From a virus, in IMG/VR virus record IMGVR_UViG_3300013119_000728, positions 1 through 60,232 of that record: a stretch of DNA of 60,232 nt. One strand, 5' to 3'. Of the stretch, positions 8,414 to 57,715 are shown piece after piece. Under the pieces are notes generated by a model. That model searched no databases and was not told the DNA's origin. It saw only the letters and a list, made by a program, of their open reading frames with translations. Made by a program: the position numbers and the translations under genes. Each line of letters begins with the position of its first letter. Position 1 is the first letter of the stretch.

Positions 8414-9223
8414 ATGTTAACATTCGTCGGTATTATTACATTCGTCGTATTTGTTCATGAATTTGGACATTACCTTGCTGCAAAGTCAGTAGGGATCCCA
8501 GTCAAGACATTCTCCCTCGGCTTCGGCCCCAAACTCCTCAGCTTCAATGCACGAGGAACTGAGTGGAGATTATCGCTTATACCTCTCGGCGGATACGTTC
8601 GCCTGGAAGGTGACGATGATTATGAGAACCTTGCAGAGGATCCTAATTCATTCTGGGGATGTAAACCTTGGAAGCGGATTCTAATTGCAGTGGCGGGTCC
8701 CGTGGTAAACCTAGCACTACCTCTGGCACTATTCTTTGGCTATTACTATGGTCAAAAGGTTGAAGTTGAGCATCAAACCCCGGCCGGAGTCATGGTAAAA
8801 GTTCACGAGGTAGATGCAAAGGTTGCAGCTCAAGCGTCCTATAGGATGACGAAAGACATGTATGCATCAATCGGTCGCGCAGTTAGTCACCTCAAGCAAA
8901 GCGGGGTCAAGAAAGAAGATCTCGGCGGGCCAGTAGCAATATATAATGAGACGCAAAGAGCTGTAAGGAAATCTGAGGAGACTAAAGACTGGGGATTCCT
9001 AATTCAGTGGATCGCTTTCTTCTCAATCAATCTGGGCGCCATGAATCTACTACCTATACCACTATTGGACGGCGGGCATATTATGCTGTCTACCTATGAA
9101 TGGATCACTCGCAAGCGCATATCAATGTCAGTCCGAGGCAAGCTTCATTTCGTAGGATTGTTATTTGTCTGTGCACTAATGGGCTTGGCAATCTATACCG
9201 ATGTAGCTAGACTAATTGGCTAA
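8414..9223 (+). CDS. Site-2 intramembrane metalloprotease (RseP/M50 family), PDZ-reduced
   Basis: 269 residues. Zinc motif HEFGH at 15-19 in the first membrane helix and NLLPIPLLDGGH at 211-222 supplying the third zinc ligand (D219) define the M50 family. Between them are the RseP-type GFGPKLL...LIPLGGYVRLEGDDD and WKRILIAVAGPVVN motifs. E. coli RseP is 450 residues with two PDZ domains; here most of the periplasmic part is missing. It would cut membrane-anchored regulators. It ends in a four-base convergent overlap with the minus-strand operon. Confidence 0.88.
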   Translation: MLTFVGIITFVVFVHEFGHYLAAKSVGIPVKTFSLGFGPKLLSFNARGTEWRLSLIPLGGYVRLEGDDDYENLAEDPNSFWGCKPWKRILIAVAGPVVNLALPLALFFGYYYGQKVEVEHQTPAGVMVKVHEVDAKVAAQASYRMTKDMYASIGRAVSHLKQSGVKKEDLGGPVAIYNETQRAVRKSEETKDWGFLIQWIAFFSINLGAMNLLPIPLLDGGHIMLSTYEWITRKRISMSVRGKLHFVGLLFVCALMGLAIYTDVARLIG

Positions 9224-10482
9224 CCACCGGTGCAGATATTGAGGAAGATCCTGCGCAAGGATTCAAATACCTCATTGGTTGTAGGATGATCACCAAGCGG
9301 GTGGAAGTTGTCTCGAACCCTAAAGATATCATCAAAGCTATCATAGAATCCATTGTCTGAATATACGTGCACGATGAATGGTGAGTTTGCCACAATGGCT
9401 CCTACTTCTGCTTCTCTGTGTTGAGGGATTGCTAGATCATGTGTCTGGCCTTCTTCATCTGTCATGAGAATGATAACCTTGTTTGACCCAGGCCGAAATG
9501 ATAATCTAAAGGTGTTCTCAACGACATAGCGAATAGCATCCCACGATGGCTCATCACCGCCTCCACGACTTCTTGCCATCTCTAGCGCAGTCTCAAGATG
9601 TTGCAAGAACTCATCTCGTGGCACAAAGTCTGTAATCAATCTCATCTTGCCATCGAGGTAGTTGGCACCCGGAATAGAATGAGAGCCAATCACAACGAGA
9701 CTGAACTTAAAGTTGCGTGTAAGATCGTCTTCGAGCAGAGGAGCAATACCGTAAATGGTTCGTTCAATCTCATCGTCAAAGGATCCGGACACATCAATGA
9801 TAAACGTAAGGTCAACACTGCCCGTGTCAAAGCCTTCGTCAATCTCACCATCACAATCATTGTCTTTGCCATCGCAAAGTTCCGGGGAAGGCAAAACCAT
9901 GCCAACGCAATCAGACTCCATTGATCCGTCAACACAATATCTAATACCCGGCTTGCATTCACCTACAAGAATCGTCTCCTGCGGACCGTCATAGCAGACT
10001 TCCATCGTAGTGTTGGGAAGCTGATCATCAACTACACCGTTACAATCATTGTCAATGCTGTCGCAAACCTCAGGGCTCGGACCAGCATGACCATCGCACC
10101 TCAGGTATCCGTCATAGCACATCCAGACACCGGGACTGCATATGCCCACACCGTATTCGATATCATCTTGCATACCGCAAAGCTGTGCTTGCTCTGGATA
10201 GTCTTCGTCAATTGCGCCATCACAATCATTGTCAAGGCCGTCACAAACTTCTGCTGTCGGGTCGGTGACACCTTCACATTCTGACCACCCAGCGTATGAG
10301 CATGTCTGCTTGCCCCACGAGCATATTCCGGTTCTGACTTTTTTATCTTCCCACGTCCGGCCAGCACCGTCACAATATAGAATACTGCCAGGTGTGCAGT
10401 CAAGCGCGATAAGCTTATCATCTTCACATGCCCCTGCAAGAAGCAATGCCACTGAGATGGAAACGACCGCAGCCCATTTCAT
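9220..10482 (-). CDS. Lipoprotein with three MopE-type repeats and a von Willebrand A domain
   Basis: 420 residues. Lipobox LLLAGAC with Cys 19. Three Cys/Asp repeats start at C80, C140 and C203 (CDGLDNDCDGAIDED, CDSIDNDCNGVVDDQ, CDGKDNDCDGEIDEG), the putative metal-binding MopE motif known from myxobacterial and methanotroph surface proteins. A VWA domain follows from about residue 223 with MIDAS DVSGS (230-234) and a later MTDEEGQ. Expected to be a surface or periplasmic metal-dependent adhesion or binding protein. Very unusual for a phage. Confidence 0.8.
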   Translation of the reverse strand: MKWAAVVSISVALLLAGACEDDKLIALDCTPGSILYCDGAGRTWEDKKVRTGICSWGKQTCSYAGWSECEGVTDPTAEVCDGLDNDCDGAIDEDYPEQAQLCGMQDDIEYGVGICSPGVWMCYDGYLRCDGHAGPSPEVCDSIDNDCNGVVDDQLPNTTMEVCYDGPQETILVGECKPGIRYCVDGSMESDCVGMVLPSPELCDGKDNDCDGEIDEGFDTGSVDLTFIIDVSGSFDDEIERTIYGIAPLLEDDLTRNFKFSLVVIGSHSIPGANYLDGKMRLITDFVPRDEFLQHLETALEMARSRGGGDEPSWDAIRYVVENTFRLSFRPGSNKVIILMTDEEGQTHDLAIPQHREAEVGAIVANSPFIVHVYSDNGFYDSFDDIFRVRDNFHPLGDHPTTNEVFESLRRIFLNICTGG

Positions 10483-10943
10483 TTTAGCTCCTCCATGCCT
10501 TTAATACATGATTCCCGGGAGCTATAAAAAGGAATTGTAAGGACTGAGCTCTTAAGCCATCTAAACCTAATGCTTTTGATCGGGGTGTCTTTGCCCCCTA
10601 GATTACCCATCATAACAACTGGCAAAGCTTTTTGCTGGGAAGTTAAATTATATGAGAGGACTGCAATGTCACCGTGAACCTCAAGCACGCCAACAATAGA
10701 TCCTCGAACCTCAGCTTTGGGTATGCCGATGAAGACACGTGAGAAGCTACCGCGTTCCCGAGTAACATCGTTCTCAATGTACCCAACCCAGTCACAAAGA
10801 CCGTTCTTACCCGGGATGTAGTATGTGGTCTCAGCGGCAAAGATGATCTCAGGCTTTTGGTCAGCTGAGATGATGTAAGTGAATCCGGCTATTATTAATA
10901 GACCGAGTAGAATTGAAAGTCTTGAAAACTTTTCCCGTATCAT
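10479..10943 (-). CDS. Membrane-anchored exported protein, unknown
   Basis: 154 residues with one N-terminal hydrophobic anchor (LSILLGLLIIAGFTYIISA) and a beta-rich exported domain holding Cys in GLCDWVGYI and SCIKGMEEL. Middle gene of a three-gene minus-strand operon, overlapping both partners by about four bases, so probably made together with the MopE/VWA lipoprotein. Confidence 0.6.
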   Translation of the reverse strand: MIREKFSRLSILLGLLIIAGFTYIISADQKPEIIFAAETTYYIPGKNGLCDWVGYIENDVTRERGSFSRVFIGIPKAEVRGSIVGVLEVHGDIAVLSYNLTSQQKALPVVMMGNLGGKDTPIKSIRFRWLKSSVLTIPFYSSRESCIKGMEELK

Positions 10944-22146: not shown

Positions 22147-22177
22147 TTGTGTAAACTTCGCATCCCTGTGTTATAAT
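22147..22177 (+). promoter_or_regulatory. Promoter, TTGTGTAAA / TATAAT
   Basis: TTGTGTAAA at 22147-22155, 16 bases, TATAAT at 22172-22177. It drives the DNA ligase gene and begins right at the stop of the SspB-like gene. Confidence 0.75.
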
Positions 22178-28903: not shown

Positions 28904-29233
28904 ATGTATGAATATAGTGCAAAAGTTACAAAGGTCTATGATGGAGACACGATCACGGTTGACTTCGATTTAGGTTTTGGTATCGTTCTGAGAAAACAAA
29001 AGATTCGATTGCTTGGGATCAACACACCCGAAGTCAGGGGAAAATCCCGTGAGCAGGGTCTGATATCAAGGGACCGGCTTCGCGAGAGGATCATGGGAGA
29101 AAATGTCATCATCAAGACGACCAAAGACCGCAAGGGAAAGTATGGTCGTTGGCTCGGCGAGGTGTTTATAAAAGATGAGAATATAAATCAGTGGCTTTTA
29201 AACGAAGGCTTGGCTGAGAAGTATAATAAGTAG
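28904..29233 (+). CDS. Staphylococcal-nuclease-like (thermonuclease) protein
   Basis: 109 residues from ATG 28904; a GTG nine bases earlier is possible. VTKVYDGDTITVDFDLG, KIRLLGINTPEVRG (Arg and Glu of the site) and KGKYGRWLGEV (second Arg) are the SNase signatures. No signal peptide, unlike secreted SNase, so it may act inside the cell on DNA or RNA. Confidence 0.85.
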   Translation: MYEYSAKVTKVYDGDTITVDFDLGFGIVLRKQKIRLLGINTPEVRGKSREQGLISRDRLRERIMGENVIIKTTKDRKGKYGRWLGEVFIKDENINQWLLNEGLAEKYNK

Positions 29234-29243
29234 AAAGGAATAG

Positions 29244-29319
29244 GCGGCCATAACTCAATTGGTAGAGTACCAGTTTTCCAAACTGGATGTTGTGGGATCA
29301 TGCCCCACTGGCCGCTCCA
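29244..29319 (+). tRNA. tRNA-Gly(TCC), odd T-loop
   Basis: 76 bases with CCA. Acceptor GCGGCCA/TGGCCGC, anticodon loop TTTCCAA between CCAGT and ACTGG. The T-stem GTGGG/CCCAC encloses ATCATGC instead of the usual TTCRANY. Confidence 0.85.
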
Positions 29320-29357
29320 GAAGTTAAAATATATAGGGTTAATTGCTCTACCAAACG

Positions 29358-29365
29358 ATATTTAT
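29358..29365 (+). promoter_or_regulatory. Candidate late-type promoter ATATTTAT
   Basis: ATATTTAT 18 bases before the homing-endonuclease start, followed by GAGGTAGG. Confidence 0.4.
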
Positions 29366-29383
29366 TATTAGAGGTAGGTGATT

Positions 29384-30088
29384 ATGATAAGTGAAAAAAG
29401 TCAACTAAGAATAAAAGAAGAATGGAAAAACAAAGACGGTCTATATGATTGTCCGTATTGTGAAAAATCGTATGTAAAACGCGGAATCAGTACACATATT
29501 TGGCGTAATCATTCTGCTCAAGGTCAGGAATTTAACAAAAACTCAATCAACAATCAGGGCTATGCAAACGGAACAAGAACAGCCTGGAATAAAGGACTAA
29601 CAAAAGAAATGCACCCAAGCCTCAAGAAGGCCGGAGAAACGTATAAAAAGAAAATTGCTTCTGGTGAAATAATTGTAAAAAGCATTCCGCTATCTGAGTT
29701 ACATAAAGAGAAAATATCAAATGGAATGAAATCTGCTCATGCAGAAGGCAGGGCCTGGAACATAGGAAGATCTAGATGGAATAATGAACCAAGCTGGCCA
29801 GAAAAATTCTTTAAACAAGTTATCGAGAATGAGTTTGATAACAAAAAGTTTAAGATGGAATATCCAGTATCTATTTATTCTTGCGATTTTGCGTGGCCAG
29901 AGATTAAAAAATGCATAGAAATTGACGGCGCTCAACATCAGCGGTTCGATGAAGTAAAAGAGAGAGACAAAAGGAAAGATGAATGTTTAAAAGAAAATGG
30001 ATGGGAAGTTCTAAGAATACCTTGGAAAGATTTTTATAAAAACACAAAGAAGTGGATAAAATTAAGTAACGAATTTATTGGAGAGTAA
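29384..30088 (+). CDS. Vsr/EDxHD-like homing endonuclease with zinc finger
   Basis: 234 residues from ATG 29384. Zinc-finger-like CPYCEKSYVKRGISTHIWRN (C2H2), a NUMOD3-like middle (AWNKGLTKEMHPSLKK), and a C-terminal nuclease domain YSCDFAWPEIKKCIEIDGAQ, then GWEVLRIPWKD, of the Vsr/DUF559 type. Sits inside the tRNA array and its last ten bases form the 5' end of tRNA-Asn. Confidence 0.75.
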   Translation: MISEKSQLRIKEEWKNKDGLYDCPYCEKSYVKRGISTHIWRNHSAQGQEFNKNSINNQGYANGTRTAWNKGLTKEMHPSLKKAGETYKKKIASGEIIVKSIPLSELHKEKISNGMKSAHAEGRAWNIGRSRWNNEPSWPEKFFKQVIENEFDNKKFKMEYPVSIYSCDFAWPEIKKCIEIDGAQHQRFDEVKERDKRKDECLKENGWEVLRIPWKDFYKNTKKWIKLSNEFIGE

Positions 30089-30153
30089 CTCAATGGAAGA
30101 GTGCGAAGCTGTTAACTTTGTGGTTGTGGGTTCGAGCCCCTCCTCTCCAGCCA
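30079..30153 (+). tRNA. tRNA-Asn(GTT), overlapped by a homing gene
   Basis: 75 bases with CCA. Acceptor TGGAGAG/CTCTCCA, anticodon loop CTGTTAA, T-loop TTCGAGC. Bases 30079-30088 are also the last codons and stop of the endonuclease. Confidence 0.9.
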
Positions 30154-30182
30154 AAAGTTAGGTTTCTTTAAAAAACCATAGT

Positions 30183-30270
30183 GGAAAGTTGGCCGAGCGG
30201 TCGAAGGCGATGGATTTGAAATCCATTGAGGTGCAAGTCTCCGAGGGTTCGAATCCCTCACTTTCCTCCA
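30183..30270 (+). tRNA. tRNA-Ser(TGA)
   Basis: 88 bases with CCA and a long variable arm. Acceptor GGAAAGT/ACTTTCC, anticodon loop TTTGAAA. Confidence 0.94.
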
Positions 30271-30272
30271 CT

Positions 30273-30348
30273 GGGGATATAGCTCATCTGGTAGAGCACC
30301 TGCTTTGCACGCAGGATGTGATCGGTTCGATCCCGATTATCTCCACCA
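30273..30348 (+). tRNA. tRNA-Ala(TGC)
   Basis: 76 bases with CCA. Acceptor GGGGATA/TATCTCC, anticodon loop TTTGCAC between CCTGC and GCAGG. Confidence 0.94.
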
Positions 30349-30374
30349 TAGACCGAAATGTCTGTAAACTACGT

Positions 30375-30451
<77 letters not shown>

Positions 30452-30466
30452 ACCTTGAGGAGATAC

Positions 30467-30940
30467 ATGAAGAACGTAGATAATAAGACAAATTGGGGCA
30501 AGGCGGCAGCATGGACCGCATTCGTTGCTGCAATTACATGTGCAATCTTTGTGGCAATCATTGTATTTGCAGTCCAGACGACAGGCTACCTAGACAAAGA
30601 ATCTGATGCTGACAAGATATCACGTCAAGTTACAGCAAAGATAACAGTATTAACGTCAGAAGTTAGATCTCTTCGAGAGCAAGGAGAGAAGATTCGCAAG
30701 TACCTCGAGCTATGGACACCGATGAAATGCAGGAAGGAGCTTAGCATAAAAGAGGAGTGGGTTTTACCTGGCTACGGAGTTCCAAAGATTGTTCCGAGGT
30801 CATATATATACGTAGAGCAAGAGGATATACTTGAATGTAGCCCCGCGGGAGAGTTCTATGCAAATGATAAGCATGGCGCAGTCGACAAGATACGAGATGT
30901 ATCGACTCCTCAGAAGGGTCCGAGATCTAGAAAAAACTGA
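30467..30940 (+). CDS. Membrane-anchored coiled-coil protein
   Basis: 157 residues from ATG 30467 (GAGGAGA upstream). One membrane helix (AWTAFVAAITCAIFVAIIVF), then a coiled coil (VLTSEVRSLREQGEKIRKYL) and a Cys-containing C-terminal part. A spanin-like role is possible but unsupported. Confidence 0.5.
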   Translation: MKNVDNKTNWGKAAAWTAFVAAITCAIFVAIIVFAVQTTGYLDKESDADKISRQVTAKITVLTSEVRSLREQGEKIRKYLELWTPMKCRKELSIKEEWVLPGYGVPKIVPRSYIYVEQEDILECSPAGEFYANDKHGAVDKIRDVSTPQKGPRSRKN

Positions 30941-33268: not shown

Positions 33269-34042
33269 GTGGCTATCGCAGCAAAATCAAACGCCTCAGG
33301 CTTGGGTCGATACCTAAAAGAAATTGGAAAAGACCGCCTCCTTACAAGGAGTGAAGAGGTTGATCTTTCAATTCAATCTCGAAAGGGTGATAAGAGAGCT
33401 CGAGATATCTTGATTCAACGAAATCTACGACTCGCAGTATCTGTTGCCAAGAAAATGCAGAAAAAAGGCACAGATCTTGAAGATCTAATCCAAGAAGCAA
33501 ACATCGGATTGATGCGCGCAGTTGAGCGATTTGACCCTACAAAGGGATTTAGATTTTCAACCTATGCACACTGGTGGATTCGTCAAGCAGTAGGCCGCCA
33601 TATCCAAATGCACAGTCGCAGTATTCGAATTCCATCTCATGCCCAAGGCTTATCTGCAAAGATTCATGTTGCTAGTAAAGAGTTTGAAAAAGAGTTTGGG
33701 TGTTTGCCGACTGCCGATGAGATCGCAGATATTCTGGGGGCTACAAAGTCCTCAGTTGAGGCAGCAATGAGTGCTCCAGCGTTTACGCTTTCTCTTGACG
33801 CTCCCAAGTATCGTAATGATTCTGGTGATGGAACACTAGGCAGCTCAATTGAAGATATCTGGTCTGAAAATGCAGAAGATAAGATTGCTAGAGATGAAAT
33901 GAGAAGAATTGTGCTAGCGTCTACGAGCAAACTTTCTCCTCGAGAGCAGGCAGTAATTCGCCTAAGGTTCGGCATCTCAGATCCGGATGATACACAGAAT
34001 TATCATATCGATCTTGATGATCATAAGTATCTAAAGGCTTAA
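33269..34042 (+). CDS. Sigma-70 family factor lacking region 4.2
   Basis: 257 residues from GTG with TAAGGAG upstream. Region 1.2 at about 10-45, region 2 at 50-115 (DLIQEANIGLMRAVERFDP, then GFRFSTYAHWWIRQAV), region 3 at 120-170 (RIPSHAQ ... LPTADEIADILG) and region 4.1 LSPREQAVIRLRFGI at 222-236. The helix-turn-helix of region 4.2 should come next; instead the protein ends in an acidic 20-residue tail. It can therefore read -10 but not normal -35 elements. Confidence 0.88.
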   Translation: MAIAAKSNASGLGRYLKEIGKDRLLTRSEEVDLSIQSRKGDKRARDILIQRNLRLAVSVAKKMQKKGTDLEDLIQEANIGLMRAVERFDPTKGFRFSTYAHWWIRQAVGRHIQMHSRSIRIPSHAQGLSAKIHVASKEFEKEFGCLPTADEIADILGATKSSVEAAMSAPAFTLSLDAPKYRNDSGDGTLGSSIEDIWSENAEDKIARDEMRRIVLASTSKLSPREQAVIRLRFGISDPDDTQNYHIDLDDHKYLKA

Positions 34043-53977: not shown

Positions 53978-54155
53978 TAAAAGCACACATAGGTTCGAAG
54001 TATCATTCACATTCAAAGACAAATCCGGAGCTGATAGAACGGCTCACGCAATCTGGGATATTCTGTCTGACACTGCCGAAAATGCCGGGGTTGAAGTGAA
54101 GAATATGTTAGAAAACTATTGCGGGGGCGAGATAGTAAAGCGCATTAATGATTGA
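53967..54155 (+). CDS. Unknown small protein
   Basis: 62 residues (RFEVSFTFKDKSGADRTAHA). GAGGA upstream. Overlaps both neighbours. Confidence 0.5.
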   Translation: MSYNKSTHRFEVSFTFKDKSGADRTAHAIWDILSDTAENAGVEVKNMLENYCGGEIVKRIND

Positions 54156-54348
54156 CTACAAAAAACAAAAAGCAGTGATCATCCCCCAGTGGGTTCTAGA
54201 CATGATAATTGATCAGCTCGATATTCAGCTCGATTCTTTGCTTCAAGAATATGAATGGAATGCTAGAACGGGCGCAGAAATGAAAGAAATCACCAAAGAG
54301 GTGGGTCTCTACGAAGAAGCGCTAGCACAGCTTTCCAGTCAATGCTAA
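54148..54348 (+). CDS. Unknown small helical protein
   Basis: 66 residues (IIPQWVLDMIIDQLDIQLDS). The following 112 bases to 54460 hold only a TATAAT at 54435-54440. Confidence 0.5.
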   Translation: MIDYKKQKAVIIPQWVLDMIIDQLDIQLDSLLQEYEWNARTGAEMKEITKEVGLYEEALAQLSSQC

Positions 54349-54460
54349 GCAATCCTTAAGGACATAAATCGGACAATCGCAGCGACCAACGCAGAACCTC
54401 TGGCAGCTGTTATAAACATGCTTCCCAGGATGTGTATAATATTTTGGGAGTTTAGAACAA

Positions 54461-54553
54461 ATGATTCCGCCAGTGTTCAGTTTAGTAATTGCAAAAATGC
54501 ACGATCGCTTAGAAGAAGATCATCAAAAGCTTAATAAAAATCGAGGAAAATAA
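54461..54553 (+). CDS. 30-residue peptide upstream of methyltransferase
   Basis: MIPPVFSLVIAKMHDRLEED and a basic end. Its stop overlaps the methyltransferase start (TAATG), and TATAAT lies 20 bases upstream; may be a leader or coupling peptide. Confidence 0.4.
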   Translation: MIPPVFSLVIAKMHDRLEEDHQKLNKNRGK

Positions 54554-55341
54554 TGTCGTATACAGGATTTGTAGGGATCATGACGCAATATTGCTCTAAT
54601 TTAAAATCACCAACAGTTTTAGAAATCGGGGTAGATAAAGGGCAAACAACACTACCGCTAATTCATAATCTTATGCTTTATAATCCTGACTTTAAATATG
54701 TCGGCGTTGATATTCGAATGGATCACTTATTGATTGAGCAAATGGCGCAAATGAAGGGGATCAAGTCGATTGTAGCAAAATCTGATATTGACTCTTTGTC
54801 TAGCTATTTCTCTAATCCTTCGTGGGAGGATGACACTAGCTGGAACTCGATGTATATTGAGCAAAATAGTCTTGCATTTCTTCCAATGCTGGCAGAGTCC
54901 GGGGCCAAGTTTGATCTTGTCTTAATTGATGGAGATCATAACTACCCAACAGTCAAACAAGAACTTAAGTATCTGAAAGATATTACTCATCCTTCGAGCT
55001 TGGTAATTTGCGATGACTACAACAGCAAGAGACATTCCGGAAAAGATAGTTTCTATAGAGACACTGAATCTCACAAACATATCAAAGACAGCATTGATGT
55101 TATTCAAGCCGTTGATGGAAAATCTGGGGCGGATCAAGCCATCAATGAGTGGATTGAGCAAAACGAAGACTGGAATGTTAGTTTCACTGAAGACCTGGAA
55201 CCGGCGATTTTATCATCAAAATACTTGAAATACAGCATTGAAAACATGAATATGCTTTATAAAGCCATGGCAACGTTTGGCGTCACACCCGAAGGTGCAC
55301 ATAGATTCAAGATAGATAACGCACGTCGACAGATATCGTGA
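54553..55341 (+). CDS. Class I SAM methyltransferase (Methyltransf_24-like)
   Basis: 262 residues. Motif I VLEIGVDKGQTT, motif II YVGVDIR and motif IV DLVLIDGDHNYPTVKQEL, with VICDDYN after it, fit the small-molecule or glycan-modifying class I group with a D-G-D-H metal site. Substrate unknown. Confidence 0.75.
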   Translation: MSYTGFVGIMTQYCSNLKSPTVLEIGVDKGQTTLPLIHNLMLYNPDFKYVGVDIRMDHLLIEQMAQMKGIKSIVAKSDIDSLSSYFSNPSWEDDTSWNSMYIEQNSLAFLPMLAESGAKFDLVLIDGDHNYPTVKQELKYLKDITHPSSLVICDDYNSKRHSGKDSFYRDTESHKHIKDSIDVIQAVDGKSGADQAINEWIEQNEDWNVSFTEDLEPAILSSKYLKYSIENMNMLYKAMATFGVTPEGAHRFKIDNARRQIS

Positions 55342-55517
55342 ATTCATCTTTCCGGGAAGTCATAACAGAAACAACATAACTAGTTAGTCTATAGAGTAGA
55401 GACGCTAAAGAGTCTAGATAGCGTAGTAGCCACCCGCGTGCTAAGTCTCATACTACCTCAGCGCTCTGATTGCTAGTCATATGCTGTATCTTGTGTATGT
55501 CAGCGTCTTCTCTGCGT

Positions 55518-55567
55518 GGCAGTGGATATTTGTCCCGCCCAGCTGGGTCATCGAGGGGCAGTGGATA
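55518..55567 (+). repeat. Direct repeat GGCAGTGGATA x2 around a palindrome
   Basis: Copies at 55518-55528 and 55557-55567, 39 bases apart, with CCCAGCTGGG between them. Confidence 0.55.
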
Positions 55568-55853
55568 CGGGTCTACTGTTTATGGTAAATTCTGCGTCTG
55601 CTAGGATAGGGTGAAAAATGCTGGTGGTCGGTGAGGAGGCTGTAACTAGGGCCCCGCGCGCACCCTCCCGATATCTCGTTGTCTTAATTTGTCTCATATT
55701 GTCTAGCATTGTATCTAGATCTAGATTACAGTCTCAATTGAATTGCGTATAACATTATACATCTCTCATTCGTAGCGCTGATACTAGTCAGCTAGCATTT
55801 AAGCCAGTGCACGTTATTCATTTGGGCCGGGCGGGGTATAATAATATAGGTAG

Positions 55854-56015
55854 TTTTAGTCGACGCAGTTTTAGTCAACGAAAAGAAAAGCTCTGTCCCG
55901 GCGCAACTAAATTGTGGCGAGCATAGAGTTCAATTTTAGTCGACGATTAGGGCTAGCGATTTAAGCCAAGAAGGGCAGCACGGTCGATGACAGGCAGCAC
56001 TGATTTTAGTCGACG
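55854..56015 (+). repeat. Four copies of TTTTAGTCGACG
   Basis: At 55854-55865, 55869-55880 (one change, TCAACG), 55934-55945 and 56004-56015. They begin 12 bases after TATAAT 55837-55842 and end 18 bases before the gene at 56034, so they would lie in its leader. GTCGAC is itself a palindrome, as in operator or iteron sites. Confidence 0.7.
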
Positions 56016-56033
56016 CGTTTAAGCGAGGAAATT

Positions 56034-56198
56034 ATGACAAAAAACCTTACATCAAAAGAAGTTGAATTAATTCTCAGAAACAGTGCGATCGGCCAGATAA
56101 TGCTGTATGATACAATTGAGATGCCGGTGGTCCACTACTATAAAAACGATAAAGACGAGTTGAGATTCATTACACTGTGGCGACATAATTGGGTGTAA
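56034..56198 (+). CDS. 54-residue protein after the repeat region
   Basis: MTKNLTSKEVELILRNSAIG, then MPVVHYYKNDKDELRFITLW. Strong GAGGAAAT site. Could be the product regulated by the upstream repeats. Ends W-V-stop within the next promoter. Confidence 0.55.
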   Translation: MTKNLTSKEVELILRNSAIGQIMLYDTIEMPVVHYYKNDKDELRFITLWRHNWV

Positions 56199-57018: not shown

Positions 57019-57366
57019 ATGTCTAATATCGATTCCCAACTTAATGATGCTATCCTCGATGCAGTCGGCCGCTATGCTGGTGAGATGCAAGACCGCTTTG
57101 ACACTGACGGCGATCCGAGCTTGACTAACCGCCCTCTCTGGAATGCTCAGGTTGCAGCTGCTACTAACATGCTTGAGAGCGAGCTCCGGCTTGAGATTGA
57201 GCAGGCTTTCCAACGTGTTAACGATTTGCTCGATGACGGTGACTTTATGGCTAGCGGCGAGGTTGTTATAACGCAGGCTTTTCTCCGGAAGCGGGAACTA
57301 GAGGCCAACACTCCCGGCATCGTCCCGCTTGAGGAATTGTGTAAAGTTCCCAACAACGTATTATAA
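57019..57366 (+). CDS. MSNIDSQL-family protein 1
   Basis: 115 residues. MSNIDSQLNDAILDAVGRYA ... ESELRLEIEQAFQRVNDLLD. A near copy follows at 57395. Its stop codon lies inside the next promoter's TATAAT, so the last residues (KVPNNVL) are promoter-encoded. Confidence 0.55.
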   Translation: MSNIDSQLNDAILDAVGRYAGEMQDRFDTDGDPSLTNRPLWNAQVAAATNMLESELRLEIEQAFQRVNDLLDDGDFMASGEVVITQAFLRKRELEANTPGIVPLEELCKVPNNVL

Positions 57367-57394: not shown

Positions 57395-57715
57395 ATGTCT
57401 AATATCGATTCCCAACTTAATGATGCTATCCGATACGCAGCCCGCCGCTATGCTCGTGAGATGCAAGAACGCCTTAAAGCCAGCTTCGATCTGGGCTCGC
57501 GTGCCCACTTTCCCGGGATTGGTCAGGTTATAGCTGCTTCTAACATTCTTGAGAACGAGCTCCGGCTTAAGTTTGAACAAGACATGCTTGAGAACGAGCT
57601 CCGGCTTAAGTTTGAACAAGTCTTCCAGCGAGTTAACGATCTACTCGACAACGGTGACTTCATGGCCCACGTTGAGGTCAAGATACGTCAGGCTTGGCTC
57701 CGGGAGCGGAACTAA
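57395..57715 (+). CDS. MSNIDSQL-family protein 2, with internal repeat
   Basis: 106 residues from ATG 57395. Same start as 57019 (MSNIDSQLNDAIRYAARRYA) and same end pattern. A 13-residue unit (MLENELRLKFEQ) occurs twice in a row. Tandem paralogue. Confidence 0.55.
   Translation: MSNIDSQLNDAIRYAARRYAREMQERLKASFDLGSRAHFPGIGQVIAASNILENELRLKFEQDMLENELRLKFEQVFQRVNDLLDNGDFMAHVEVKIRQAWLRERN
57548..57620 (+). repeat. Two 34-base direct repeats in frame
   Basis: 57548-57581 and 57587-57620, period 39 bases (13 codons). The paralogue at 57019 has one copy, so this is a recent in-frame duplication. Confidence 0.8.

Follow-up and report, generated by a model that had tools for sequence, protein, structure and literature searches.

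The gene-free region and its counterpart in a related phage

The question raised by positions 55342-56033 of the window, by which we mean the whole 60,232-base virus record analysed here, is what function is served by 692 bases of DNA without a gene. The window carries 14 tRNA genes and holds nearly all of its genes on the + strand, and the gap extends from directly behind the stop codon of a methyltransferase-like gene (55341) to the start codon (ATG) of a gene for a 54-aa protein (Table 1). A preliminary description had called it the longest gap in a compact window, and this was confirmed: no other stretch of the window free of open reading frames (ORFs) of at least 75 aa is as long, and in a rough gene model built from our own ORF calls the region has about twice the length of the next gap. 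No convincing ORF was found in the region on either strand, even when TAG was translated as a sense codon, and such recoding did not open a long frame.

A syntenic region was found in a related phage, the 235,681-base contig G001, which was reached through a MoxR-like ATPase. The gene order common to the window and G001 consists of a methyltransferase homologue (51%), the gene-free region, a small ORF, small genes and a RadA-like ATPase (75%). The G001 region (10198-10880, 683-685 nt) exceeds all other gene-free stretches of that contig in length, once three larger apparent gaps are set aside that look like coding stretches overlooked by a quick gene finder. A core of 191 nt is 65% identical between the two phages (64 bits, E about 1e-14), while the highest score among 300 shuffles was 28.3. 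Translated comparison of the two regions gave weak and similar scores in several frames on both strands and a single dominant coding frame was not seen, which argues for conservation at the DNA level rather than of one coding frame. Four other stretches of the window called as gaps match G001 as well, at least one of which looks like a missed small gene, and we do not claim the region as the sole conserved intergenic stretch.

These observations bear on the possibility that the region is a decayed gene or a neutral spacer. The many stop codons across it and the lack of an ORF are what such a history would leave, but length, gene order, core and repeats are conserved although the adjacent methyltransferase is only 51% identical. 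The comparison with G001 makes decay or neutral spacing unlikely, and we attach very little weight to it. Judged from its sequence, the region is probably a cis-acting phage DNA control site. The earlier suggestion of an origin or an operator array thus stood as far as a cis-acting site is concerned, since position, length, array, core and promoter are kept in G001, in a comparison of two phages.

Further relatives were sought in several ways. Protein patterns of the methyltransferase next to the region, of the 54-aa product and of the RadA-like protein returned no direct relatives from viral contigs, scans for patterns of the repeats, or of the GC block together with the TTGTCT array, matched G001 only, and the TTGTCT array was absent from 33 other related contigs. 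Likewise, BLASTN of the locus against a known phage collection gave no match, and related large phages had no counterpart of the locus. A candidate third region upstream of RadA in G009 was rejected, its similarity being no better than that of a reversed control, and the longest gaps of G013, G002, G020, G010 and G009 were considered and set aside as well. Repeated TGAAAGTCGGTGA 12-mers in G002 (29199-30530) and G009 (54143-55608) look like the common starts (MKVGD) of a family of tandem small genes and not like this motif.

Table 1. Features of the gene-free region and of the genes on either side, in window coordinates
Feature	Position	Strand	Remark
Methyltransferase-like gene	54553-55341		Pfam Methyltransf_24
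Gene-free region between methyltransferase-like gene and 54-aa gene; proposed cis-acting DNA locus	55342-56033		Based on lack of ORF and G001 synteny
Left conserved block	55346-55402		67% identity to G001, weak, E=0.003
GGCAGTGGATA, first copy of conserved 11-nt direct repeat	55518-55528	+	
Conserved core	55519-55704		65% identity to G001 10431-10614
Second CAGTGG copy within possible conserved hairpin (GGGC.GTGGNN....NNCTAC.GTTT)	55556-55581	+	
GC-rich block GGCCCCGCGCGC	55650-55661		Identical in G001
Least stable DNA of the region, possible unwinding element	55670-55770		Nearest-neighbour energies; lowest-stability 2% of window
Three units of TTGTCTNNNN and one degenerate unit TTGTATCTAG	55679-55718	+	Exact 10-nt period
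Palindrome ATCTAGATCTAGAT	55713-55726		
Looser repeat-family member TTTAAGCCAG	55798-55807	+	
Predicted promoter -10 region, GCGGGG-TATAATAATATAG	55831-55849	+	-10 box at 55837
Repeat copy 1, TTTTAGTCGACG	55854-55865	+	
Repeat copy 2, TTTTAGTCAACG	55869-55880	+	
Repeat copy 3, TTTTAGTCGACG	55934-55945	+	
Looser repeat-family member TTTAAGCCAA	55960-55969	+	
Repeat copy 4, TTTTAGTCGACG	56004-56015	+	
Repeat-family member TTTAAGCGAGG (TTTAAGCGAG at 56018)	56018-56028	+	Overlaps ribosome-binding site of 54-aa gene
54-aa protein	56034-56198	+	Weak G001 counterpart in the same place: 67 aa, 22% identical (two-sequence alignment)

Repeat families and a conserved layout

The array of four repeats reported earlier is real, with the qualification that it comprises three exact copies of a 12-mer and one variant with a single mismatch, besides looser relatives. 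The exact copies and the variant all lie on the + strand at irregular spacing and are absent from the rest of the window, and four copies of any 12-mer occurred in none of 500 dinucleotide shuffles. G001 has its own version of the 12-mer (TTTTAGCSAACG; TTTTAGCCAACG, TTTTAGCGAACG) in place of that of the window, and outside the locus the exact 12-mers are absent from the window and from G001, as would be expected of a single dedicated site and not of a regulon. A degenerate motif gave nine copies on the plus and none on the minus strand of each region (0.34 and 0.21 expected from the rate in each genome; maximum of 3 in 1000 shuffles), a 9:0 figure that is descriptive because the pattern was fitted to the copies of both regions, while the statistics of the exact repeats are unaffected. 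The exact repeats have diverged, and layout and length were kept. That the repeats changed together in the two phages would be expected if they track a DNA-binding partner.

The second of the two direct repeat families described before is the TTGTCT array, whose 10-nt period was found in none of 1000 shuffles; three units stand in the same place in G001. In both phages the core holds two copies of CAGTGG and the GC-rich block in addition to this phased array, and the low-stability stretch (10657-10757 in G001), which is among the lowest 1-2.5% of each genome, adjoins the array. A palindrome was likewise recovered, as the preliminary description had it. Its remark on a different word composition was correct for the window, where the region contains 11 CTAG, compared with 1.6 on average per 692 nt; the G001 counterpart, however, contains no CTAG, so that CTAG richness is not conserved and is not a functional signature.

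Partition sites typically contain one-way repeat arrays and repeats phased at 10 bp, and a single site per genome would also suit another genome process, namely centromere-like partition, the start of packaging or a recombination hot spot. We regard this as improbable, since neither a ParM/TubZ-like nor a ParR/TubR-like gene could be recognised next to the locus, and a partial gene survey of G001 places its portal and capsid genes at a distance of about 105-115 kb.

A regulatory RNA had also been considered, and the possible hairpin in the core, which shows pair-keeping changes (z about -2 to -2.3, from two sequences only), together with a single-sequence fold of 55860-55979 that is stabler than its shuffles (z=-3.2), would agree with a structured noncoding RNA. 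This idea fared poorly otherwise, as the RNAalifold z values were -0.1 (core) and -0.3 (whole region, + strand), Rfam returned no match even at E=1, and most windows folded no better than shuffles, which leaves one short hairpin. Since the alifold comparison comprised only two sequences, it lowers the RNA reading rather than excluding it, and we consider such an RNA highly improbable.

The predicted promoter and possible control of the small gene

Among the TATAATA sites on the + strand of the window, 23 of 37 have GTG[C/T]AA exactly 22 or 23 nt upstream, a box that is found at none of the six minus-strand sites. This class (TTGTGYAAA followed by TATAATA, + strand only) occurs for example at window positions 22172, 41634, 43600, 52633, 57362 and 57773, and the same GTGYAA-TATAATA class is seen at 20 of 37 sites in G001. 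The window also encodes a sigma-70-like protein (33269-34042) that has regions 1.2, 2 and 3 but no more of region 4 than roughly its first 15 residues; tblastn found no homologue of it in G001 despite the common promoter class.

The site at 55837 lacks the GTGYAA box and has a G-rich spacer (GCGGGG-TATAAT) instead. This form, GCGGGG-TAYAAT, occurs once in the window and once in G001, at the matching place (GCGGGGGTACAAT), and 55837 is predicted from sequence to be a dedicated promoter outside the common GTGYAA class of the phage. In agreement with the earlier description of a promoter whose leader carries the repeats, all four exact or near-exact copies in the window follow the predicted promoter within 170 nt.

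The main rival of an origin is a transcriptional operator or leader, in which a phage regulator would bind the repeats, in DNA or in the mRNA leader, and control the 55837 promoter or the translation of the 54-aa gene and the genes downstream. The proximity of the repeats to the predicted promoter in the window, the conserved promoter form that is unique to the locus, and the last repeat-family member, which overlaps the ribosome-binding site of the small gene in both phages (TTCGAGCGAGG in G001), all speak for it, and this last overlap means that control of the small gene fits as well. However, seven of the nine G001 copies sit 220-415 nt upstream of the matching promoter, while the main repeats lie downstream in the window, an arrangement easier to reconcile with an origin than with a promoter-blocking operator. 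In an operator array one would expect repeats on or beside the promoter core, in the same position from phage to phage, but the one placement common to both phages is the copy on the ribosome-binding site. Moreover, for the control of one small gene a region of nearly 700 nt that includes a conserved core of 191 nt is long, and the motif is absent from other phage promoters. An operator or leader is in our judgement a serious candidate, albeit on balance an unlikely one.

The proposal that the small protein binds the repeats was not supported. The 54-aa protein has no family match, its structural model is of low confidence (pLDDT 56) and a structural search gave no useful match; its pI is 6.7, and the G001 counterpart is strongly acidic (pI 4.1, charge about -9). 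Further along the window, tandem paralogous small genes (57019-57366 and 57395-57715) start with MSNIDSQLNDAI, each with a promoter region of the GTGYAA-TATAATA type, and a minus-strand protein elsewhere (9220-10482) combines a von Willebrand-like stretch with several copies of a CDGxDNDCDG motif that, judged by eye, is MopE-like.

A candidate replication origin

The function that we tentatively favour as the most likely, with a confidence slightly short of even, is that of a replication origin with iterons, i.e. short direct repeats bound by an initiator. A phage protein would bind the same-facing TTTTAGYSRACG repeats, the easily melted stretch beside the GC block and the 10-bp-phased TTGTCT array would open, transcription from the nearby promoter, if active, might aid the melting, and helicase and polymerase would load after opening. 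An iteron origin is expected to show a significant cluster of same-facing short direct repeats, and such a cluster was found; an adjacent easily melted AT-rich stretch was also found, which would likewise be expected of a promoter. The location of the longest gap at the same place in both phages with near-equal length (692 vs 683) favours an origin, and the single site per genome, the same-facing repeats, the repeat turnover within a fixed layout, the low-stability stretch and the dedicated promoter fit it too.

Other results did not bear the origin out. GC skew, which had been put forward as a check, showed no switch at the G001 locus, either overall or at fourfold-degenerate sites. An initiator (Rep) gene was not recognised among ten window proteins tested, mostly neighbours, and in G001 the DNA polymerase and two helicases, one of them DnaB-like, are some 70-95 kb distant from the locus if that genome is circular. 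The irregular spacing of the repeats and the restriction of the locus to two phages also count against an origin. DnaA boxes (TTATNCACA) were represented by one copy with one mismatch in the window region and by none in that of G001, about the number expected by chance, and a DnaA-dependent origin of the oriC type was rejected for want of a DnaA-box cluster.

A more specific version of the origin proposal, which we regard as possible but rather doubtful, is that the locus represents a new origin type in an uncultured lineage of large phages with T4-like capsid genes and a PolIII-alpha type polymerase. A novel initiator would recognise a fast-changing 12-mer set in a fixed architecture of hairpin pair, GC block, 10-bp-phased TTGTCT array, AT-rich stretch and dedicated promoter. 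In G001, T4-like portal and Gp23 capsid genes occur with the bacterial PolIII-alpha type polymerase (172989-176879, 115569-117464, 122598-124514), and GroEL and an FtsH-like M41 protease are also encoded. Since origins of large phages are mostly unmapped beyond a few models, the region offers a compact candidate with a conserved relative; if its function as an origin is confirmed, it would show where replication starts in an uncultured lineage whose polymerase is of bacterial type, and would serve as a bait for the initiator.

Comparison with known systems

The T4 origins oriF and oriG resemble the locus in combining a promoter with an AT-rich unwinding element. Their promoter, however, is a middle (MotA) promoter, whereas ours lacks the common box, and their unwinding element lies downstream, while the AT-rich stretch of the locus lies upstream. 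A noncoding region with several direct-repeat families is shared with the iteron origins of plasmids and of the PLE satellite; in the latter, which uses RepA_N, the initiator binds one repeat family of the noncoding region, and replication depends on that family (PMC7145576). In contrast to these systems, no RepA_N or other Rep gene was recognised beside the locus, and our repeat is 12 nt long without inverted arms around a poly-A tract.

T4 oriE, the nearest known parallel to the locus, has been described as an evenly spaced cluster of 12-nt repeats with a promoter of early mode and a connection to RepEB, the role of the repeats never having been established (PMC3016281). In the T4 genome (NC_000866, 79426-79533) we observed that these repeats have a 24-bp period inside gene 5; as this corresponds to eight codons, they may be protein (coding) repeats rather than iterons. 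The T4 repeats (GTTRAAGGWAAT) thus lie within a gene at exact spacing, whereas ours are noncoding and irregular. There is no sequence likeness and no homology or synteny with the T4 arrangement (antisense in gene 5, repEA/repEB), and the polymerase of G001 is of the PolIII-alpha type and not that of T4. Our locus is not a homologue of oriE and at most works like it, the likeness lying in 12-nt direct repeats, a promoter of early rather than middle type, tiny linked proteins (45 and 50 aa in T4, 54 aa here) and the T4-like capsid and portal genes of G001.
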